NCBI GenBank assembly: GCA_018829185.1
Contig: JAHJUI010000023.1
Span: 1-47,074, forward strand
Origin: Nanobdellota archaeon
GTDB taxonomy: Archaea > Nanobdellota > Nanobdellia > SCGC-AAA011-G17 > PNOQ01
Direction of reading: 5' to 3'
Length of the DNA stretch: 47,074 nt
Part shown: positions 33,787 through 47,074 of the stretch, piece by piece
Layout: every line of letters starts with the position of its first letter
Numbering within the stretch: the stretch's first letter is position 1
The notes under the pieces: model-generated
What the model was told of the DNA's origin: nothing
The model's input: the letters and a program-made list of their open reading frames with translations, nothing else
Databases searched by the model: none
Position numbers and translations under genes: made by a program

Positions 33787-34797
33787 ATGCTAATCGAAAT
33801 AATCTTACTAATTATAGCATTAGTTTGGCTTTCTTTTGCTACTTATTTTGATATTAAAACACAAGAAATTCCAGATTGGCTAAGTTATAGTTTAATTATA
33901 ATCGGTTTTGTTTTAAGTATATTAAAGTCAAATCCATCTTACATTTTGATTATCTTAGGGTTATTAGTCATCACTTCAATTTTTTACTATATTGAAAAAG
34001 AACTTAAGTGGGTTAAGGGGTATATCTTAATTGTAATTAGTGCTTTCATTTATTTCTTTGTAGCAGCTAAGTTAACACAAAACATTTTTTCAAGTAGTAT
34101 CTTGGGTTTCTTAATTTTCTTTATAATTGGAGACTTAATGTACCATTCAAAACAATGGGGTGGGGGAGATGTTAAATTACTGGCGGGACTTGGGATAGTA
34201 TTCGCAACATATCCAAAAGTATTACTAACTTTCTTAAATCCAAACCTAAATCTTCCATTTTTAATCATCTTATTCATAAATATATTAATTGCAGGGGCAT
34301 TTTATGGAATAATTTGGGCATTTGTCTTAGCAATCAAAGATAAAAAGAAGTTTTCACTTAACCTAAAAAAAATACTCCATATGAAAAAAGTAAGGTTATT
34401 AGAATCAATAGTTTTTATCCTAACTTTAGTTTTATTATTAGTTGCATTCTTTACAGTCCAAGATTTAAGAATTAGATTATTTGCATTATTCCTAGGAATC
34501 TTACCTTTATTTTTCCTATACCTACTAATTTTAGTAAAATCAATTGAAAACATGTCATTCATAAAGAAAATTCCAATTTCAAAAATTAGAATAGAAGACC
34601 AAATACAAAATGATATTTTCTACAAAGGTAAAAAAATATATTCAAAAAAATCATTAGGAGTTACAAAGGCACAATTAGCTTTAATTAAAAAAGCAAAAAT
34701 AAAATCAGTTATCATAAAAGAAGGTATTCCTTTTGTTCCTAGTTTTCTAATTGGTGTTTTAATTAGTTTAATTTTTGGTAGTTTAATTTTCTTCTAA
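33787..34797 (+). CDS. A24-family prepilin/preflagellin peptidase
   Basis: 336 residues, membrane-embedded, with about seven to eight hydrophobic segments. The two catalytic aspartates are D22 in TYFDIKTQEIPDW and D128 in WGGGDVKLLAGLG (the GxGD motif). The enzyme cleaves class III signal peptides of pilins and archaellins in front of the hydrophobic helix. Candidate substrates with basic KKG leaders are encoded at 41606-46891. It is leaderless from the bidirectional TATA box. The final helix is followed by a 4-base overlap with the opposing HIT gene. A soluble loop of about 60 residues near residue 250 is longer than usual for the family. Confidence 0.9.
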   Translation: MLIEIILLIIALVWLSFATYFDIKTQEIPDWLSYSLIIIGFVLSILKSNPSYILIILGLLVITSIFYYIEKELKWVKGYILIVISAFIYFFVAAKLTQNIFSSSILGFLIFFIIGDLMYHSKQWGGGDVKLLAGLGIVFATYPKVLLTFLNPNLNLPFLIILFINILIAGAFYGIIWAFVLAIKDKKKFSLNLKKILHMKKVRLLESIVFILTLVLLLVAFFTVQDLRIRLFALFLGILPLFFLYLLILVKSIENMSFIKKIPISKIRIEDQIQNDIFYKGKKIYSKKSLGVTKAQLALIKKAKIKSVIIKEGIPFVPSFLIGVLISLIFGSLIFF

Positions 34798-37227: not shown

Positions 37228-37668
37228 CTATTTAATACACAGAAAACTTTCCACTCTTTTTATTCTTTCATCAATCGGAGGATGAGTTTTAGAATTATAC
37301 TTTACCACCCCATTCTGATAAAACTCCTTAATTTTTCTTAAAAATTTAAGAGTATTTTCTCTCCCACAGTTAGATGCAGCAAATTTATCTGCCCTGAACT
37401 CTGTAGACCATTTTATTTTCTTAGAATCAAACCAAAGTCTTATTGAATCAAACAACCAATTAAAAAGAGAATGCTTAGCATGATAAAGTTCATGCCAAAC
37501 AATAACTCTTTGTTCATTTAAATCGAACTTATCAAAAAAATAGGTTCCAACTTTGACTGTAAACCAACCACCCCAAAGAAGATTTTTATATTCAGGAGAC
37601 TCATAAAATCTCAATTTAACCTTCTTGCCTTCCTTTAAATCAAAGTCTATTCTCTTATATTTATTCAT
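37228..37668 (-). CDS. M48-like minimal metallopeptidase
   Basis: 146 residues from the ATG at 37668; a longer reading into radA is a shadow. [13 protein letters not shown] gives H59, E60, H63, and E90 in [12 protein letters not shown] is the third zinc ligand of M48 enzymes. The end [18 protein letters not shown] is also an M48 feature. Unlike HtpX it has no clear membrane helices, though [10 protein letters not shown] is amphipathic. It overlaps the radA stop by eight bases, so it lies in the same operon, which is unexpected for a protease. The function in that context is unknown. Confidence 0.8.
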
Positions 37669-38668
37669 CCCTAAGACCTTCTTCTCTAATCCAAAACATA
37701 CATTCTGAATCTGGCAAATTAGGAGCATCTACTAACTTAGCAACCCTACAACCTTTCTTACCTTTCCTTAAATATAACCTAAAGGTTGAATTATGACCTA
37801 CAATATGCCCACCAATCGCGGTAGTTGGATCACCAAAAAACATATCTGGTTTTGACATTACTTGATTAGTTACATAAACAGAAGTATTATACTGATTGGC
37901 TAATTTCATTAACTGGTGCATATGCTTATTCAATTTCTGTTGTCTATCTGCAAGTTGTCCTCTACCAGAAAAATCAGCTCTGAAATGGCCCATTAATGAA
38001 TCAACTATAATCAATTTGATATCTTCCTTTTTCATTAAATCTTCCGCTTTTTCAGCTAGTAACATCTGATGATCAGAATTAAAAGCTCTTGCAACCTTAA
38101 TATTAGATAATGCTTTTTCAGGATCTATTCCTACACCTTTTGCAAACTGAATAATTCTCTCTGGTCTAAATGTCCCTTCAGTATCAATAAATATAACTTT
38201 ACCATTAGAACCCCCTTTCTCAACAGGCAACTGAACATTAACAGCTAAAGCATGAGCAAGTTGAGTTTTACTAGACCCAAATTCACCAAAACATTCTGTA
38301 ATACAACCAGTCTCAATTCCGCCAGCCATCATCTCGTCAAAACTTTTGCTGCCAGTAGTTATCTTAACCACTTTTTCTCTCCTCTTTAATAAATCAGCTC
38401 CAGATTCAAAACCCATGTCTAATTTATCTCTAGAAACTTTTATAATCTTCCTTGAAACTGTTTCACTTAAACCAGTAATAGTACTAATCTCCTTAGGGCT
38501 GGAAACAGCAATTGACATTAAACTATCAAAACCATTATCTCTTAATTTATCGGCAGTTGTAGGCCCAACGCCAGGTAAATCTTCTATACTATTTGTACTT
38601 TCAACTATTGGTTCTTTAGTTTCTACTTCAATGATTTCTTCAATAACTTTCTCTTTTGCCATTTTCAT
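37661..38668 (-). CDS. radA: DNA recombinase RadA
   Basis: 335 residues. An N-terminal helix-hairpin-helix region ([20 protein letters not shown]) is followed by the RecA core. The P-loop is [10 protein letters not shown] (128-137), where the usual RadA form has G before K; Walker B is [16 protein letters not shown] and the ATP-cap region contains [11 protein letters not shown]. It forms filaments on ssDNA and does strand exchange. The ATG at 38668 overlaps the upstream stop by four bases; a second ATG at 38662 is possible. RPA and Hjc in the window belong to the same pathway. Confidence 0.95.
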
Positions 38669-39825: not shown

Positions 39826-40170
39826 ATGAAAACCTGGCAAAAAGGTGGATTAATTGGAATTCTAGTTTTCATCGGATTATTTTTAATAGAAGGAACAATT
39901 AAAGCCATAACAAATGGCGGAAAATGTATTATTGTTTGTCCTGCAGGTGGAGGAGCTTGTGCGCAAAGCTTCAGTCATTGTTTCACCTCAAGCATAAGTT
40001 ATAATTTCTTCCATGCTACATTATTTCAATTCTTCGCAGGAATGCACGTTTCCCAAATTCTTTTGAATAACTTATTTAGGGGTTTCGCAGGATTAATAGT
40101 CACCATTGTATGTTATTTCTTAATTGGAGTATTAACAGCAATCATTGTTAAAAAGATAAAATCGCGATAA
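39826..40170 (+). CDS. small membrane protein with Cys-rich loop
   Basis: 114 residues with an N-terminal helix (GLIGILVFIGLFLIEG), a central loop with several Cys (GGKCIIVCPAGGGACAQSF, HCF), a second hydrophobic stretch and a C-terminal helix (FAGLIVTIVCYFLIGVLTAI) with a basic end. No family is recognised. TTTTTATATT about 26 bases before the ATG gives a leaderless start. The end overlaps the opposing YdjM-like gene by 23 bases. It lies directly beside the endonuclease promoter, so it could be cargo or simply a neighbour. Confidence 0.6.
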   Translation: MKTWQKGGLIGILVFIGLFLIEGTIKAITNGGKCIIVCPAGGGACAQSFSHCFTSSISYNFFHATLFQFFAGMHVSQILLNNLFRGFAGLIVTIVCYFLIGVLTAIIVKKIKSR

Positions 40171-40579
40171 TTACCAAAATAACAAAAAACAAAACATGTT
40201 CTAAAAAACTTCCAGTTTTAATAAATCCTTTAATCTTAAACTTAGCAGGATAAAACCACCTAATTCCAGCAAAATTAAAACTATCAATCACTAAATGACT
40301 CAAATATCCAACAAAAAAAGCCAAAGCTAACTCAAAAGAATACAAATATATTAAAAAACTTAAACCTGCAGCAAAAAACAAACTATGAAATAATTTCCTA
40401 TGCCCAAAAAGAACATTAAAAAACCAACTCAAAGGCTTAACCTTCCTACCTAATTTGCTTTTAGTTGTATCAATATCAGGAACTAAAGAAGCAAATACAC
40501 AAACTAAAACCATAATCAAATTAAACTTTAATAAAATTGCAACTAACAATCCAAAAACAGCATGAGTATACCATCTCAT
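40148..40579 (-). CDS. YdjM/DUF457-type membrane-bound metal-dependent hydrolase-like protein
   Basis: 143 residues. The family's conserved sites are visible: FASLVPDIDTTKSKLGRK, FGHRKLFHSLFF and GYLSHLVIDSFNFAG, between hydrophobic helices. The His and Asp pattern resembles a metal site in a membrane protein; a phosphatase-like role is suggested for some relatives. The ATG overlaps the RPA stop by four bases, so it is the second gene of an operon led by RPA, an unexplained partnership. Confidence 0.75.
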   Translation of the reverse strand: MRWYTHAVFGLLVAILLKFNLIMVLVCVFASLVPDIDTTKSKLGRKVKPLSWFFNVLFGHRKLFHSLFFAAGLSFLIYLYSFELALAFFVGYLSHLVIDSFNFAGIRWFYPAKFKIKGFIKTGSFLEHVLFFVILVIIAILSF

Positions 40580-41559
40580 TGTAATTCTTTCAAAATTTCT
40601 TCAGGGGTAATCTCCCTAACATCTCTTGCCATAAACTCAAGTCTATCAAACATTTGATTTTTAGAAACTCTACCAGCAATCACTAATTGCTTACCTAAAA
40701 GCCCATTTTTAATTTCCTCAAATTTACTTAAATCATCTTTTAAAACTAACACCTCTTTTTCTCCCAGACCTAAAACTTTTTCAACAACATCTCTAAAGAA
40801 TACTATTCTAATATTCCCAAACCCATCATCAAAAAATACATTCAATATAGGGATCTGCGTTGCAACAACATTTTCATGCTCTGCACATTTTCCTTCAACC
40901 AACTTTTTCCCACAGCTTGGACAAGCATCATAAAACCTAGGATCAAAAACCTGAACAATAGTACCAAACACTTCAGCACTTTCATTTTCTTGTAATTCAC
41001 TTATTTTCTTTCTAGAATAATTAACTTGATTCTGCCTTACCACATCACCTACATTCACCCCAGCAGGATTAACTTCTATCTCAGATTTAGTACCTAAATG
41101 TAATTCCTTGTAACCATTATTATCTCTTGCATAAGCTGCTTTAATCTTCAAAATATCCCCTTCCTTAAACTTCCCTTCTTCAAGAGTTTTAATTAAAGGT
41201 TCATCCCAAATAACCATCCTGACCATTCCAGTTTCATCCCCCACATTCAAATTAGCAACTCTCCCTTTTCTTTTTCCAGTATCAAAATCTCTAATCCCAA
41301 ACAAATTTAGAACTCTAACATTAACATTAACAACTGGCATTCCAGGAATAACATCTTTAATCTTAATTTCCCTATTGTTTACGCTCTCAAAAACCTTAAC
41401 TCCTAATTGATTTGCAATTATGTGCGCTGCACCCTCTTTACTGACTAAATCACTTAATTGCCTTATTTTTTCAGTGACTTTAACATCAATTTCTTCCTTA
41501 GAAATATTCTTCTCTTCAACAATCTTTCTTACAATATCATCATAGCTTATCTTAAACAT
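40576..41559 (-). CDS. rpa: replication protein A (RPA-like ssDNA-binding protein)
   Basis: 327 residues. After an N-terminal helical stretch, OB folds are seen (DVIPGMPVVNVNVRVLNLFG, GRVANLNVGDETGMVRMVIW) and a second near 180-300. A C-type zinc site lies between them (CPSCGKKLVEGKCAEH). This is the archaeal RPA pattern. It coats ssDNA in replication, repair and recombination. CTTTATATTT about 26 bases before the ATG indicates a leaderless transcript. It is the first gene of an operon with the YdjM-like protein. Confidence 0.9.
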   Translation of the reverse strand: MFKISYDDIVRKIVEEKNISKEEIDVKVTEKIRQLSDLVSKEGAAHIIANQLGVKVFESVNNREIKIKDVIPGMPVVNVNVRVLNLFGIRDFDTGKRKGRVANLNVGDETGMVRMVIWDEPLIKTLEEGKFKEGDILKIKAAYARDNNGYKELHLGTKSEIEVNPAGVNVGDVVRQNQVNYSRKKISELQENESAEVFGTIVQVFDPRFYDACPSCGKKLVEGKCAEHENVVATQIPILNVFFDDGFGNIRIVFFRDVVEKVLGLGEKEVLVLKDDLSKFEEIKNGLLGKQLVIAGRVSKNQMFDRLEFMARDVREITPEEILKELQ

Positions 41560-41605: not shown

Positions 41606-42370
41606 CTAACAAATTAAAGAACTTTTCCCTAATCCAGAACCAAAATCAACAGCTCCTTTTAGAGTTAAATTAGTTTCTCCAAATACATTCTCTACTTTTC
41701 CCAAATCAACATCAAAAGTAAATAATTTCCCATTATTGCTCCAATTAAAATTAGAACTTCCCCAACAACCAACATTATCTCCACAACTATCAATAACACC
41801 CTTAACCTCTAAAACTTTAAGCATTACTTGGTCTAAATCATAATCAACAATATATGTTAAAGTGGGATTAACTTCATAATCAACATGAATATTTTCTAAA
41901 TCTCTTGAATAAATTAAATTATCTGATTTGCCAATTACTTTCAATCCATTTGTATCTTTTTCAAAAGTAAACTCAAAATCTCCATTTAAATTAATTTTAT
42001 CTAAATCTTCAACAATAGTTTTATTTAAGTAAGAACTCAATGCTCCCTTAATTGTGTCTTCAGTTGGATAACATTCATTAACATCTCTTTTCCATAAAAC
42101 ATATTCATTTTCCTTGTTCTTACTTTCAAAAAATCCCCCATTCAACAAAAGTTCATTCAAAGAATCTGAAAAACCATATTCTAAAGATTTATCCATATAC
42201 ATTAAATCTGCTTCTACTTCATCAAAAACATTATACAATAAAATAGAACTTAATCCAGTAGCTCTTTCAATCGGAGAAGAATTAGTTAAAACCAACCAAG
42301 AAGTCCAGCCCAATATTATAATTGTCACTACCAATAATGTAAATGACCAATAATCTCCTTTTTTATTCAT
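41606..42370 (-). CDS. prepilin-like exported protein (KKG leader, 254 aa)
   Basis: 254 residues starting MNKKGDYWSFTLLVVTIIIL: basic residues, Gly, then a hydrophobic helix, as in type IV prepilins cleaved after Gly. The extracellular remainder is beta-rich with some Cys pairs (CGDNVGCWG) and ends FGSGLGKSSLIC. It is the last gene of the operon; its ATG overlaps the upstream stop by four bases. A minor-pilin or surface-filament role is inferred from the leader only. Confidence 0.7.
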   Translation of the reverse strand: MNKKGDYWSFTLLVVTIIILGWTSWLVLTNSSPIERATGLSSILLYNVFDEVEADLMYMDKSLEYGFSDSLNELLLNGGFFESKNKENEYVLWKRDVNECYPTEDTIKGALSSYLNKTIVEDLDKINLNGDFEFTFEKDTNGLKVIGKSDNLIYSRDLENIHVDYEVNPTLTYIVDYDLDQVMLKVLEVKGVIDSCGDNVGCWGSSNFNWSNNGKLFTFDVDLGKVENVFGETNLTLKGAVDFGSGLGKSSLIC

Positions 42371-43311
42371 GGGGGGTTTGCCTCCCTAAAATGTTCATAA
42401 ACGTTCTTAGCAATAATTTTCATTTCATAAAGATGATTAATTTTCCATGTACCTAATTTAAGGTGATCGGATGCTTTGGGGGATAAATAATTATAAAGAT
42501 ATTTCCCAGGATCATTTTTTACGTCTTCTGTTATTTTTATTTTTCCTAACCAAATATTTTCATTATAAGTAGATATTATCAAAAGTAAATAATCTTTAGG
42601 CACCCCATTTATTATGTAAAGCATATCTTCCGCTTTTACCCTATTCCTTGCTTCTTCTGTTGGGCCAGCAGGAGTATTCAAGGCAGATAACTTAGCACTT
42701 AAAGATACGTAAGTATGCTCCTGTTTCCAAGCTTCTTGCAATCCAGGATGAGTATCTGCAACTAAACCGTATGTAGCTGCAATACCTTGTACATCATCAA
42801 ACCAAACCTTAGTTCCAAGAACATTATATTTATTTATTGCAACCAAATCCCCATTTTTATCTATAGTATGAACAGTCTCCAATAAATCTCCTTGCCCAAT
42901 CATTTTTAAATAAGATTCAGCAAACAAAATCTCTCCGTTCTTACATTCAATACTAAACAACCATTTCAAATTATAACTAGCAGGATTAGTCAAAGACTCC
43001 GCATTCTGAGCTAAAACCATATAATTCCTAGTTTTCAAAACCAATTCCCCAATATAACTTTCATTTACACAAGCAAGTGCAACTAAATCATTCATCTCCA
43101 TTTCTTTTCCATCAACAATAACTTGTTCCCATAAATAATTAGTAAAAATCAAGCTTCCATGGGTTGAATATTCTGCAATCAATTCTCTATCATGTGTAGT
43201 TCCTGTTTTAAGACTTAATTGATTAAAAATAACAAAATAAGCAAATAAAAGAAAAGTTAATACAATTATTATAAAGAAGTTCACCAAAAATTCTTCGCCT
43301 TTCTTATTCAC
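42367..43311 (-). CDS. prepilin-like exported protein (KKG leader, 314 aa)
   Basis: 314 residues, starting with GTG at 43311 (MNKKGEEFLVNFFIIIVLTF). The start overlaps the upstream stop by eight bases, and GTG is the only start that includes the KKG leader. About 285 residues of mixed alpha/beta extracellular sequence follow, with one Cys pair near residues 79 and 129. No known domain was recognised. The size is large for a pilin, so it may be a pseudopilin or an assembly component. Confidence 0.65.
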   Translation of the reverse strand: MNKKGEEFLVNFFIIIVLTFLLFAYFVIFNQLSLKTGTTHDRELIAEYSTHGSLIFTNYLWEQVIVDGKEMEMNDLVALACVNESYIGELVLKTRNYMVLAQNAESLTNPASYNLKWLFSIECKNGEILFAESYLKMIGQGDLLETVHTIDKNGDLVAINKYNVLGTKVWFDDVQGIAATYGLVADTHPGLQEAWKQEHTYVSLSAKLSALNTPAGPTEEARNRVKAEDMLYIINGVPKDYLLLIISTYNENIWLGKIKITEDVKNDPGKYLYNYLSPKASDHLKLGTWKINHLYEMKIIAKNVYEHFREANPP

Positions 43312-43795
43312 TTTCTACCACCATTAAACTCAGATAACCTGGTTTTAATTTCCCATTTTCATTTATTAAAACATAATCTTTTCTTACCCAACAATCAAAA
43401 CCAACCGGATTTTTAGTATCACATAAAGATAAAAAAGCCCTAGCCTTATCATTAGTTACAAAACTCCCATAATTTTTTCCATTTATTTCTTCTAAACTAA
43501 CATTAAATCCTATTTTGTCTGGTAAAACTAAACAAGTATTAATTCTACTTAAATCAAATTTAGTCGGATCAATTATTCCTTGATAAACTCGATCATTCTC
43601 TTCAAAAGCCAAACAGTTCTCAGACCTAATCAATCTTTGACTAACAATAAAAGTTTCTTCTATAATTATATCTATATCTCTTGCAACAAATAAATTAAAT
43701 ATAGTTAAAATAACAGCCACAACAACTATTAATAAAAATAATCTAAAAATAAATTTAATAAACTCTCCTGGCAAATCTTCCCCTTTTTTATTCAT
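43304..43795 (-). CDS. prepilin-like exported protein (KKG leader, 163 aa)
   Basis: 163 residues from the ATG at 43795: MNKKGEDLPGEFIKFIFRLF, followed by a hydrophobic helix. An in-frame ATG at 43810 would add a five-residue MRLVR; the start at 43795 is preferred because one base separates it from the upstream stop and the MNKKG leader matches the neighbours. Three or four Cys occur in the extracellular domain. It overlaps the downstream gene by eight bases. Confidence 0.65.
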   Translation of the reverse strand: MNKKGEDLPGEFIKFIFRLFLLIVVVAVILTIFNLFVARDIDIIIEETFIVSQRLIRSENCLAFEENDRVYQGIIDPTKFDLSRINTCLVLPDKIGFNVSLEEINGKNYGSFVTNDKARAFLSLCDTKNPVGFDCWVRKDYVLINENGKLKPGYLSLMVVESE

Positions 43796-43796
43796 T

Positions 43797-44654
43797 CTAA
43801 CTAGCCTCATAAGCCGGGAAAGGTCTTAACTCCCCGCACATCTTATTCAAATCCGTTTTACTATACATACTAACTGTTGCAGCAAGTCTATCTGGAGCTT
43901 TTGCACCCCCAAAAAAGGCACCAACAATCGCTGCTCCTCCTACAACAACACCAGCTACTGCATTAACTCCAGGGATTGCAAATAAAACAGCACTTGCAGC
44001 TAATCCCCCCCCAACCATAGCTTTAGCTTTTGTTCCAGTATCCACAAAAAATGACTCAACAGCTCCGTCTTTAACTACATTAAACACAACCCAATATTCT
44101 TTATCCAATGGAAGATATGATTTATCAGCAGGATCTGGATTATATCTAGCTCCTTTAGTTCCAATTAAATATTCTGAATAAGTCTCTCCACCCAACGGGA
44201 CATTATGATTATTTAAATAAGTAAATAATTCATTAACAGTAATTCCCCCAGGATAATTAACTCTTGTTTGATCACTAAAAGTAAATTGAGAACAAACATA
44301 ACATTTAGATACACTATTCAATTTATAATCTGTAAGGAAATCTACTTTTCCACTTCCAAACTGCCAATAACACCAAAACATTTCATCTGCCATGTCCTTC
44401 AACATAATATCTTTTGTTTCTATATCATAATTATAATAATATGTTCCACAATTAAAATTCTCAGTAACTCCTTTTCCGCCCCTTAAAGTTTTAGATAAAC
44501 CAGCTATCTTTACACTTTGCAAACAAGCTTCTCTTAATCCATATTTTCCAGTCTCCCTTAAAAAAGTAGTAGAAAAAATAATCAATATAACTCCAATTAA
44601 AATAATTCCAATTACAACTACTAAATTAGATATCCCTTTTTTACCTGAACGCAC
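43797..44654 (-). CDS. prepilin-like protein with Gly-rich hydrophobic end (285 aa)
   Basis: 285 residues, GTG start at 44654 (MRSGKKGISNLVVVIGIILI). An SD-like GGGGGG lies eight bases upstream. KKG-I and the following Leu/Ile/Val-rich helix are the closest here to classical archaeal pilins. Near the C terminus, a hydrophobic Gly/Ala-rich stretch (MVGGGLAASAVLFAIPGVNA, then VAGVVVGGAAIVGAFFGG) could form a second membrane hairpin, which is unlike a pilin. It overlaps the 34-residue ORF by 14 bases. Confidence 0.65.
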   Translation of the reverse strand: MRSGKKGISNLVVVIGIILIGVILIIFSTTFLRETGKYGLREACLQSVKIAGLSKTLRGGKGVTENFNCGTYYYNYDIETKDIMLKDMADEMFWCYWQFGSGKVDFLTDYKLNSVSKCYVCSQFTFSDQTRVNYPGGITVNELFTYLNNHNVPLGGETYSEYLIGTKGARYNPDPADKSYLPLDKEYWVVFNVVKDGAVESFFVDTGTKAKAMVGGGLAASAVLFAIPGVNAVAGVVVGGAAIVGAFFGGAKAPDRLAATVSMYSKTDLNKMCGELRPFPAYEAS

Positions 44655-44745
44655 TAAAAATCCCCCCCGAAACAGCTTGCCAAATTAAAAATATTAAAAA
44701 AAATGCTAATATCCAACCCATTACTCTTATTGCACTTACTTCCAT
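44641..44745 (-). CDS. 34-residue single-helix membrane protein
   Basis: MEVSAIRVMGWILAFFLIFL, then IWQAVSGGIFSAFR. One membrane helix with a short basic end; no KKG leader. It is too short for a family search by eye. It overlaps the GTG-started downstream gene by 14 bases and sits in frame with the operon, so it may be translated as a small structural subunit. The coding status is moderate. Confidence 0.5.
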   Translation of the reverse strand: MEVSAIRVMGWILAFFLIFLIWQAVSGGIFSAFR

Positions 44746-44770
44746 AAATTAGAATTATATTCTGTCCTAT

Positions 44771-45187
44771 TTAAATATTTTCATCAGCATCAAAGAAAAC
44801 ATTATCTTGCTCAATTTGTACACTTAACTTATTGACATCTCCAAACTTAGCATCCACTATATTCATCTGCTGATTAATATCTAAAAAGCAAAAATAAGAA
44901 TTTTGTTTACTTCCGTCAAACGCTTCTTGAAAAAATTTAACTTCGCATCCAGGTAATTGTTCAAAACTATAAATTCCTGCTCGGCTCTCCATATCCATTT
45001 CTACTTTTAACCCATTATTAACTATCATAGCAGAACTTTCTAACATTCCAAAATCCTTAGCTAAAAACTCTCTTTCAAAAGATTCATTTCCAATATTAGA
45101 TTTCATAAAAATAGCCAAGCTTCCCATTACAATAACCACTATCCCAATATAATACAATTGCAAAACCATTTTTTGACTCATTCCCAT
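44771..45187 (-). CDS. exported protein with N-terminal anchor (138 aa)
   Basis: 138 residues beginning MGMSQKMVLQLYYIGIVVIV, a hydrophobic helix without the KKG leader. The outside part is beta-rich with two Cys (GCEVKFFQ and SYFCFLD). One base separates it from the upstream stop. It is likely a component of the same surface complex as its neighbours, but its family is unknown. Confidence 0.65.
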   Translation of the reverse strand: MGMSQKMVLQLYYIGIVVIVMGSLAIFMKSNIGNESFEREFLAKDFGMLESSAMIVNNGLKVEMDMESRAGIYSFEQLPGCEVKFFQEAFDGSKQNSYFCFLDINQQMNIVDAKFGDVNKLSVQIEQDNVFFDADENI

Positions 45188-45188
45188 T

Positions 45189-46712
45189 TTAAACCATTAT
45201 ATTTTCTGAATTATAAACAATTTGTTTTCCATTAGGATTATAAACCCAAACATTAAATAAATTAGCACCATCTGCACTATCCGGTAAACTCAAACCATTT
45301 GCTATCTCTCCTAATCCAGCATAAATATCTATTTGACATCTATTATCAATTGTATAAGAACCAGTATCTTCTGCAACATACCATCCAGTCCATTCTCCTT
45401 TATCATATCCGCTTTTTGGTTCAATATAAACATATGAACCTAAAGGAATATAACATTCTGTCCCTTCTTTAATATTTACTGCAATAGTTTTAAACGCTCT
45501 TGGACCAGTATTAACTGTAGTTTTTCCTAACATATCTGAAGGTGGATCATTACATCCAGTTGAATCGTGTTTAATACATTTGTAAGTATAAGTTATAAAA
45601 TTATTATCAACTCCTGAACCTTGACATTTAACAGCTTCATAAAATCCTTTTGGATATTTTACGCATGCTGCGATACCTCCCAGATTCTCTTCATTAGTTG
45701 TGGTCCATGAATTGTAATCTCCTTGATAAGCTGTAACATAATGACTCAACATTAAATTTAAAGAAGACTCTGCTAATGGTTTAGACTGCCTAAAAAATTC
45801 AGATTTTGGCCAACTTTGGGGATTATTTGCCTGAATAATACTTCCATCGACCCTAATTGAATCAACTTCTATATCCAAATAAGCTAAAGAATCTGCAGGA
45901 GAACTAGGAAAACTATAAGTTCTACTAGATGGAGCTATGCCCCCGATTAACAAAGATGGGTTAATATTATATTTAGCAAGAATTTCCATTCTTTTACTTG
46001 GATCAGCTTTTGCAATATCGATATCTTGTTGTGTAATTCCTAAAGCTTCAAAATTAATTTGAATAAACTCCTCGGTTTGCCCTTCTATAAACGCTTGCCC
46101 AGGAACTTGACCTGGTGTCTGGAAAACAGTTAAATCATCATACAAATTATCTTTTGAAATATAAATTATCTTACTAAAATAATTAATATAATAAGGTGCT
46201 TTTCTATTGGAATATATTTCAACTGGTTTTCCAAGATTATAATCCGGAACGCCACCTGAATTAATAAAAACTTCATCCCTTGTTGCTTCTTCATTTTCAA
46301 AAACATGACAATAAGAATATTTTTCGCAACTAGAACTAGTTTTTAACAAAGGCATAAATCCTAAAACCTTAATTTGTTTTTTTTCTGCAGCACAAACACA
46401 CAAACAAGTTTGCCCTTCACATTCAAAAGGCCTAGTTGCTCCGTGATTTTTATCTGCATCAAAACCAATTAAAGAACAACCACTATTAATATGGAATAAT
46501 CTAACCCCATAATTCACTTCTCCTGCTTTTATAGAGTCTACTATTTCCTGCATTTCATCCACAATATAATCTGTGCCCTCACATTCCCCATCTAATCCGA
46601 AAATAGATTTAAACAATTGCGTGGCCAGATCTCCAACACCAAAAATTAAAATAATTGCAATAACTACATAGATTAATGCTTTAACACCCATGCTTAATGA
46701 ACCTTTTTTCAT
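45189..46712 (-). CDS. KKG-leader exported protein with C-terminal 3D domain (507 aa)
   Basis: 507 residues. MKKGSLSMGVKALIYVVIAI is a short basic leader plus membrane helix. A Cys-rich domain follows (GQTCLCVCAAEKKQIKVLG), then alpha/beta parts. Residues about 405-475 match the 3D domain of double-psi barrels: FKTIAVNIKEG, YIPLGSYVYIEP, YVAEDTGSYTI and QIDIYAG. The three conserved positions are N413 (usually Asp), D449 and D462. This domain occurs in peptidoglycan lytic enzymes such as MltA and in resuscitation-type factors, so its presence in an archaeon is notable. An upstream ATGA overlap links it to the 60-residue gene. Confidence 0.7.
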   Translation of the reverse strand: MKKGSLSMGVKALIYVVIAIILIFGVGDLATQLFKSIFGLDGECEGTDYIVDEMQEIVDSIKAGEVNYGVRLFHINSGCSLIGFDADKNHGATRPFECEGQTCLCVCAAEKKQIKVLGFMPLLKTSSSCEKYSYCHVFENEEATRDEVFINSGGVPDYNLGKPVEIYSNRKAPYYINYFSKIIYISKDNLYDDLTVFQTPGQVPGQAFIEGQTEEFIQINFEALGITQQDIDIAKADPSKRMEILAKYNINPSLLIGGIAPSSRTYSFPSSPADSLAYLDIEVDSIRVDGSIIQANNPQSWPKSEFFRQSKPLAESSLNLMLSHYVTAYQGDYNSWTTTNEENLGGIAACVKYPKGFYEAVKCQGSGVDNNFITYTYKCIKHDSTGCNDPPSDMLGKTTVNTGPRAFKTIAVNIKEGTECYIPLGSYVYIEPKSGYDKGEWTGWYVAEDTGSYTIDNRCQIDIYAGLGEIANGLSLPDSADGANLFNVWVYNPNGKQIVYNSENIMV

Positions 46713-46891
46713 CTTTTTGGAAAGGTAGATACAGTATCATTAGCTAAATGAAGTGTATCCTTAAAAAAACTTAAGGCTTTACTTAAACTGCCCATTACAC
46801 TTTCTCTAAAAATAATCAAAATAACTAATAAAACTAAAATAGCTAAAATCATTATAACAACTGTAGACATCTGGATATCTCCTTTTTTCAT
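46709..46891 (-). CDS. small prepilin-like protein (KKG leader, 60 aa), first in operon
   Basis: 60 residues: MKKGDIQMSTVVIMILAILV then an LVILIIF stretch and a short polar amphipathic end (MGSLSKALSFFKDTLHLAND). The KKG leader and single helix make it the most pilin-like small subunit. The promoter TTTATAATTATATAAA (46906-46921) lies about 21 bases before the ATG, so it is leaderless and opens the eight-gene operon running to 41606. The same element faces the gene at 47012. Confidence 0.65.
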   Translation of the reverse strand: MKKGDIQMSTVVIMILAILVLLVILIIFRESVMGSLSKALSFFKDTLHLANDTVSTFPKR

Positions 46892-46971
46892 AAACAGAAA
46901 TTACTTTTATAATTATATAAAGGTTTTGTTAGAATAGCTCTGGTGCAACCCTATAATTTTTAAATAAAAAA

Positions 46972-47003
46972 CCTCTAAGGTTTCTGTAAAGAAACCAAAG
47001 AGG
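46972..47003 (+). promoter_or_regulatory. hairpin that sequesters the Shine-Dalgarno of the last gene
   Basis: CCTCT (46972-46976), AA, GGTTTC (46979-46984), loop TGTAAA, GAAACC (46991-46996), AA, AGAGG (46999-47003). The stem is 6 + 5 bp around two opposed A-A pairs. AGAGG is the core of the SD AGAGGTG (46999-47005), six bases before the ATG at 47012, so folding would block ribosome binding. This works only if transcription starts before 46972, for example from the TATA-like stretch at 46906-46921; another TATA at about 46959-46966 would start within the loop. Confidence 0.6.
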
Positions 47004-47011
47004 TGAATCCA

Positions 47012-47074
47012 ATGAATAATGAATATTCAGATTATTTAAAGTTTATTGATGATGCTTTAGAGCTTGCTAAAGCC
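47012..47074 (+). CDS. start of an unknown gene, cut by the window end
   Basis: MNNEYSDYLKFIDDALELAK is seen, with an SD AGAGGTG six bases before the ATG. The open frame runs to the window edge. The visible helix (YLKFIDDALELAKA) is too short to assign a family. Its start is probably controlled by the SD-masking hairpin upstream. It is divergent from the prepilin-like operon. Confidence 0.55.
   Translation, partial: MNNEYSDYLKFIDDALELAKA

Follow-up and report, generated by a model that had tools for sequence, protein, structure and literature searches.

Eight tightly packed minus-strand genes, spanning positions 46891-41606 of the Nanobdellota contig JAHJUI010000023.1, very probably form the distal portion of an archaeal type IV filament locus of 13 genes, which encodes a divergent type IV filament machine. 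Besides an ATPase and a GspF/TadC-like platform protein, the complete locus would encode some 11 subunits that are prepilin-like or have a single helix. Assignment to this class is supported by gene content, conservation, leaders, the peptidase, ATPase motifs and the predicted platform fold. The window analysed is the whole contig (47,074 nucleotides; C23), and the features described below lie on its minus strand unless stated otherwise.

Organisation of the operon and leader sequences

The first-pass annotation described an eight-gene operon in which six proteins carry KKG leaders and the genes are coupled by overlaps or short gaps, and this description was confirmed. All eight ORFs were found at the place and on the strand given; in gene order, they encode proteins P1-P8 of 60, 507, 138, 34, 285, 163, 314 and 254 amino acids, the 163-residue product being 168 residues long if started at an upstream ATG. 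Between neighbouring ORFs there is either an overlap of 4-14 bp or a spacer of 1-25 bp. A KKG motif directly precedes a hydrophobic helix in six of the eight products, as against none of the remaining 47 ORFs in the window that encode 80 amino acids or more (Fisher p ~1e-6), leaders being scored by pattern, without a trained predictor. The two products without KKG are P3 and P4. Orthologs of the 34-residue P4 have K(K/R)G in relatives. Of the 11 subunit families, nine keep the K(K/R)(G/A) leader (KKG/KKA) at the same place in the majority of their orthologs; in family B it is found in only a minority of orthologs, and in family F in about half.

Except for one 3D domain, no Pfam or NCBIfam model matched P1-P8 over its cutoff, and none of the eight proteins matched a pilin or archaellin model of the described archaeal families (PilA, archaellin). 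The earlier statement that the extracellular parts are unrecognised needs correcting for P2, which has this domain.

The small Flp-like subunit P1 (46709..46891), a KKG leader followed by a helix, matches the family D profile built from seven relatives (E=1e-8) and, below threshold, the Flp1_like model. The sequence TTTATATAA (46913..46921), located 22-30 bp before P1, is a possible TATA box of this gene, as read from the sequence.

P2 (45189..46712; KKG) combines an N-terminal region of about 110 residues, representing the conserved pilin family E (profile E=1e-20), with a C-terminal 3D domain (PF06725, 26.7 bits, cutoff 23.8). Comparison of the C-terminus with sequences of solved structures returned nothing useful. 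Since close relatives have only a form of about 165 residues, the 3D domain is regarded as an addition in this lineage. It is rare (9/279 genomes), and its candidacy as a defining feature of the system was rejected, given that the relatives lack it.

P3 (44771..45187) has a single N-terminal helix and belongs to family F (E=8e-10). P4 (44641..44745) is likewise a single helix; it is probably the family G member, as judged from position, its match to the family G profile being non-significant. The KKG protein P5 (43797..44654; family H, E=2e-44) has six conserved cysteines in the alignment, and its predicted structure consists of a pilin-like N-terminal helix of 52 residues and an alpha/beta head (AF2 pLDDT 77), for which Foldseek found no significant fold (E-values >0.1). 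The family occurs in 205 of the 279 sampled genomes of the phylum, and its heads are fast-evolving (17-28% identity in P5). The remaining KKG subunits are P6 (43304..43795; family I, E=3e-32), P7 (42367..43311; family J, E=6e-11), the head of which is longer than in relatives, and P8 (41606..42370; family K, E=5e-46).

Upstream part of the operon

The window itself encodes neither an assembly ATPase nor a platform protein, as had been noted before; the window is, however, a whole contig, and the operon goes on in another, C15. The contig break falls within the operon because an insertion sequence split it. The right end of this multi-copy element (46937..47074) carries the terminal repeat GGGTTGCACCAGAGC, of which 21 copies are present, almost all at contig ends, and terminates the contig. 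The adjoining 9-bp target duplication ATTCTAACA (46927..46935) is also found at the end of C15 beside the upstream half of the operon. On the basis of these matching duplications at a shared insertion sequence, C15 and C23 are read as two halves of one operon. An operon without its own engine was rejected, as the join supplies both the ATPase and the platform gene.

The C15 half encodes a 761-residue ATPase, a 696-residue platform protein and subunits of 62, 533 and 139 residues. The first of these matches PF00437 (53.7 bits, cutoff 24.9), has conserved Walker motifs, is well conserved as a whole (64-67% identity) and is assigned by sequence as a PilB/GspE-type assembly ATPase. The 696-residue family, present in 270 of the 279 sampled genomes, matched no Pfam model, and searching its profile against solved-structure sequences gave nothing useful. 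Among PDB structures, its model (AF2 pLDDT 82) matches with high probability only EpsF and OutF, in both cases the GspF cytoplasmic domain (probability 0.99-1.0, target TM 0.69-0.75); Foldseek E-values are near 1 (>0.1), and the assignment derives from probability and target-normalised TM over about 120 residues. The predicted fold thus includes the cytoplasmic domain of type II secretion GspF, and the protein is predicted to be a GspF/TadC-like platform.

An A24 prepilin peptidase is encoded on the plus strand of the window (33787..34797), as previously reported; it matches PF01478 (Peptidase_A24) over the cutoff and retains both catalytic aspartates, which lie in FDIKTQ and GGGD in the alignment. 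Ten of the 46 loci, that of the window among them, have such a gene at a distance of 0.1-7 kb from the pilin genes.

Conservation of the locus and its neighbours

Absence of the operon from relatives would have counted against the first-pass proposal; instead, many families of the phylum have conserved it. The ATPase and platform genes sought alongside it belong to its upstream portion. Intact loci of relatives have the same gene set: the ATPase, the platform protein and about 11 prepilin-like genes, then genes for the ssDNA-binding protein RPA, a YdjM-family protein and RadA. In other lineages, the cluster begins with very large surface proteins bearing TSP3 repeats.

In the window, RPA (40576..41559), recognised by RPA models, directly follows P8, and is accompanied by the conserved neighbours YdjM/DUF457, a membrane protein (40148..40579; PF04307, E=2e-27), and the recombinase RadA (37661..38668; PF08423, E=3e-98). 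RPA is linked to the pilin genes in 23/46 loci, representing 12 of 29 families, and RadA in 17/46; where linked, RPA is always on the pilin-gene strand (23/23), and in some genomes it overlaps the last subunit. RPA is present as a single copy in the genome studied, so its linkage may represent housekeeping co-location, and the proposal that it is a specialised competence protein is weakened.

Proposed filament machine and its function

In the proposed machine, the A24 peptidase would cut the leaders after KKG, and the ATPase would drive the platform protein, with mature subunits being extruded via their N-terminal helices into a cell-surface filament. The small, almost all-helix subunits (P1 and the 62- and 139-residue proteins of C15) probably form the shaft, and the larger, fast-evolving, Cys-rich subunits (P2, P5-P8 and the 533-residue protein) the base or tip. 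Leader cleavage is a prediction, and P3 and P4 lack KKG, as would be expected if P1-P8 were ordinary membrane-anchored proteins that are not assembled; this is highly improbable, however, with an ATPase and a platform protein encoded in the same operon of relatives and a peptidase nearby.

The neighbouring genes suggest that the machine may serve cell contact or the uptake of DNA. Its role would lie in contacting other cells or surfaces, with adhesion or host contact as the default; within this role, DNA capture and import would be the most specific candidate. There is about an even chance that the structure is a pilus with which an episymbiotic archaeon adheres or attaches to its host, without a DNA function, RPA and RadA being bystanders. 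Consistent with this are the fast-evolving heads, exemplified by P5, beside a conserved ATPase, and the TSP3-repeat surface proteins of other lineages. Type IV pili have also been proposed as the means of host attachment in Nanoarchaeota (PMC6142677). Attachment leaves unexplained, however, the constant orientation of RPA directly after the last subunit. That linkage, together with that of RadA, would be accounted for if the pilus captured DNA, an OB-fold/TctA pair imported it and RPA and RadA processed it, a possible role that we propose tentatively. On C15, a gene for a single-TM OB-fold protein overlaps a TctA-like permease gene located about 16 kb from the platform gene; the TctA family was found in 128/148 genomes, and Methanothermococcus has an equivalent pair. 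In Methanococcus maripaludis, which likewise has a type IV-like pilus, a single-TM OB-fold protein and a TctA-like permease, transformation requires both the genes MMJJ_13020/13030 and the pilus (PMC10133366); the pair described here is likened to these by architecture. Sulfolobus Ups pili promote DNA exchange. Against DNA uptake, RPA is the only copy, TctA is widespread among archaea, no retraction ATPase was identified and DNA binding is conjectural. ComEC is also absent (0/193 genomes, the same search being positive in 10 of 14 controls), which led to the rejection of ComEC-dependent uptake of the bacterial competence type; to our knowledge, archaea generally lack ComEC. It is more doubtful still that the many-subunit pilus, the OB-fold/TctA pair and the RPA and RadA encoded beside the pilus genes constitute a phylum-wide apparatus for DNA uptake and recombination in these ultra-small archaea; on that reading, the gene-poor and probably host-dependent cells would import DNA as a matter of routine, the donors being hosts or relatives.

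The many different pseudopilin-like subunits, and the enzyme-like domain fused to one of them in this genome, would also suit a type II secretion-like pseudopilus exporting proteins, such as the 3D-domain enzyme or the large surface proteins. This function is improbable, as the 3D domain is rare and missing from family E in relatives, and we know of no outer membrane to be crossed in archaea of this kind.

Since nearly all sampled members of the phylum, with genomes of 0.5-2 Mb, retain the machine, it is likely central to their lifestyle. Most of its parts are nameless in public models, and the analysis puts about 11 unannotated protein families in order and supplies profiles with which to search for them. 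If DNA uptake is the function, this would point to the gene-acquisition route of such reduced archaea and make natural transformation in them testable. If host contact is the function, studies of host range should turn to the fast-evolving heads.

Comparison with known systems

The locus shares with archaeal type IV pili (PMC4858521) class III-type leaders, an A24 peptidase, a VirB11/GspE-type ATPase, a GspF/TadC platform, and major and minor pilins. It differs in having about 11 prepilin-like families per locus, none over a pilin-model cutoff, a platform protein of about 700 residues without a Pfam match, and recurrent RPA/RadA neighbours. The first-pass reading of the apparatus as an uncharacterised multi-subunit surface structure with pilin-like parts is supported, but "uncharacterised" needs qualifying: the apparatus falls within the superfamily of archaeal type IV filaments, and pilin islands of DPANN archaea have already been published. 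Some DPANN loci with an ATPase and TadC are stated to encode unrecognisable signal-peptide proteins that are probably pilins (Makarova et al. 2019, PMC6393860). These divergent-pilin islands are likely the same kind of locus; the passage describing them gives no family anatomy, phylum-wide count, or link to RPA/RadA or transformation genes.

The Ups pili of Sulfolobales also combine an ATPase, a platform protein and pilins. Their cell contact leads to DNA exchange, as may be the case here. They differ in containing only two pilins (UpsA and UpsB), with no RPA/RadA in the operon as published.

A second type IV filament locus, on contig C20 of the same genome, likewise encodes an ATPase, platform proteins and KRG prepilins. 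Unlike in the C15/C23 locus, its platform genes are of the standard PF00482 kind and its pilins of the archaeal KKGISPLIATVLLI type, and its ATPase shows only distant similarity to that of C15 (E=5e-32).

Operon structure and leader sequences

The locus is a real type IV filament system, both conserved and divergent, which an insertion sequence has split in the assembly. The eight minus-strand genes P1-P8 (46891 to 41606) are tightly packed and have the order and coordinates reported in the first-pass annotation, and the KKG leaders described there are also genuine: KKG directly precedes a membrane helix in six of the eight genes, compared with none of the 47 other ORFs of at least 80 aa in the window (p ~1e-6). 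None of the eight proteins received a pilin assignment from Pfam or NCBIfam or was placed in any named pilin family; gene content gives good support to their membership in the type IV filament superfamily. The description of these proteins as unrecognised holds for pilin models, but the 507-aa P2 carries a C-terminal 3D domain (45189-45500) fused to the prepilin, the sole match over the cutoff among the eight. This domain is usually found in bacterial cell-wall enzymes. Stretches related to the P2 C-terminus occur in huge 3000-aa open frames of two other genomes (G029 and G041) and in a 281-aa protein of a third (G046). Makarova et al. 2019 (PMC6393860) describe some DPANN loci with an ATPase and TadC that hold unrecognisable signal-peptide proteins, probably pilins.

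The upstream half of the operon

The reported absence of an assembly ATPase and platform protein is correct for the window, which is one complete contig of a genome of 827 kb and 27 contigs, but not for the genome, where one end of contig C15 holds both genes and, after them, those for 62-, 533- and 139-aa subunits. In the relatives searched, the operon is present and unbroken, and its first genes encode the ATPase and a membrane platform protein of about 710 aa. GGGTTGCACCAGAGC, the terminal repeat of a multi-copy insertion sequence, lies at both the C15 and the window ends (46927-47074 in the window). The repeat occurs in 21 copies in the genome, nearly always at contig ends, and the insertion sequence breaks the assembly here as at 20 other contig ends. 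Beside GGGTTGCACCAGAGC, C15 and the window have in common the 9-bp repeat ATTCTAACA, or 11 bp including flanking bases. Among the 21 ends, a repeat of at least 6 bp directly beside the core repeat is common to five pairs only, and in all of these it measures 10-11 bp: the C15 start with the window end, and the C1 end with the C22 end, C2 start with C25 start, C4 end with C20 end, and C15 end with C18 end. Counted from one base further in, the C15/window pair is one of two 9-bp matches; thus, the target duplication appears to differ in length by about one base among copies. Since the two ends share both GGGTTGCACCAGAGC and the ATTCTAACA duplication, C15 and the window are very probably adjacent, with one copy of the insertion sequence, known here from its ends alone, between the 139-aa gene and P1. 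The empty-site gap between these genes is about 62 bp, and TTTATATAA ahead of P1 is a possible promoter of its own.

Orthology and divergence of the subunits

Profiles made from the sequences of seven relatives alone (four for the probable family of P4, five for the ATPase) were run against the genome and matched P1 (E=1e-8), the P2 N-terminus (1e-20), P3 (8e-10), P5 (2e-44), P6 (3e-32), P7 (6e-11) and P8 (5e-46) in the window, and the 62-aa (1e-13), 533-aa (6e-6) and 139-aa (1e-21) subunits, the platform (2e-305) and the ATPase (E=0) on C15. P4 is assigned to its family by position only. The assignment of P1 is the weakest among the small subunits, because the C15 139-aa protein outscores it on its own family profile; here position settles the membership. 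Identity across orthologs is 64-67% for the ATPase, 52-56% for the platform and 24-27% for P5; by this measure the engine is slow-evolving and P5 fast-evolving.

The 696-aa platform has no convincing match among Pfam and NCBIfam models. Its structure was modelled from 28 sequences (pLDDT 82) and searched against the PDB, where a probability of 0.99-1.0 was reached only by the cytoplasmic domains of EpsF and OutF (target TM 0.69-0.75, ~2.9 A), both GspF proteins of type II secretion; the likeness lies in the predicted fold of this domain. The E-values were about 1 or higher, which the shortness of the GspF domain against the 696-aa query probably explains. The model provides good but not overwhelming evidence for a GspF-type platform. 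In P5, six cysteines are conserved or nearly so (36-sequence alignment), and the predicted structure (pLDDT 77) combines an N-terminal helix of 52 residues, like that of type IV pilins, with an alpha/beta head for which the PDB holds no significant match.

Distribution and cluster layout

Of the 279 genomes sampled in the phylum, those listed being all within the window's class, 270 have the platform family and 205 the P5 family. Genome size, the types of RPA, RadA and eRF1 genes and published work point to a DPANN lineage akin to Nanoarchaeota/Woesearchaeota. In many lineages the pilin cluster is separate from the ATPase/platform pair, while in some, from other families, it opens with further prepilins and very large TSP3-repeat surface proteins of 1657-1877 aa (L114:319-5952, L128:58-5031), possibly adhesins. 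The ATPase gene in most relatives is flanked by two to three small membrane proteins of four to five helices and two divergent soluble genes, all unnamed (L026:7961-9598 and relatives). The window's own genome also holds a second type IV filament locus (C20:41800-48000), whose platform genes are standard and whose pilins are archaeal-type.

Possible role in DNA uptake or adhesion

Transformation of Methanococcus maripaludis requires a type IV-like pilus, the OB-fold protein MMJJ_13020, which has one membrane helix, and MMJJ_13030, a TctA-like permease that bears the next locus number (PMC10133366). The TctA family is present in 128 of 148 genomes of the lineage studied here; in the window's genome, C15 carries the TctA gene some 16 kb away from that for the platform. 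This TctA gene overlaps one of 121 aa whose product has a single helix and an OB fold scoring above the Pfam cutoff, a pair similar in architecture to MMJJ_13020/MMJJ_13030. The pair also occurs in G004, G014 and G175; no OB-fold gene was found beside TctA in G038, G076 and G137. In one Methanothermococcus genome the single TctA homolog overlaps a preceding 204-aa gene that matches the lineage OB profile (E=6e-10), and no such neighbour was found in a second Methanothermococcus or in Methanoculleus genomes. TctA and platform genes on the same contig are often 4-40 kb apart (G014, G038, G030, G012, G009), and 394 and 534 kb apart in G126 and G122.

DNA uptake is therefore a candidate role of the machine, offered as a hypothesis and not a demonstration; a proposal of this kind was not found in the titles and abstracts of the open-access papers searched. 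However, TctA is common in archaea, and ComEC was absent from the searched genomes. The pilus could also be accounted for by adhesion without any uptake, the other candidate role, and a 2018 single-cell study of Nanoarchaeota suggests host attachment by T4P (PMC6142677).

Genomic neighbours

Among 46 loci covering 29 families, 23 (12 families) encode RPA near the pilin genes, 17 (nine families) RadA, 15 a YdjM-family protein and 10 the A24 peptidase, all lower bounds since several loci are cut by contig or fetch ends; linked RPA, RadA and YdjM genes are always on the pilin strand. P2 was the route to eight of the loci, namely the window and seven relatives; the other 38 were selected with P5 alone, and 15 of these (from 10 families) show the RPA linkage. 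Chance would place a random gene no more than 10 kb away in an estimated ~2% of 1-Mb genomes. RPA is present in one copy in each of eight genomes searched and is thus the general RPA, which weakens any case for a dedicated competence factor. The window also contains a LAGLIDADG endonuclease gene (PF03161; 38906-39691) between the YdjM and RadA genes, and encodes a 517-aa protein with a Lamin Tail Domain (PF00932; 1938-3491).
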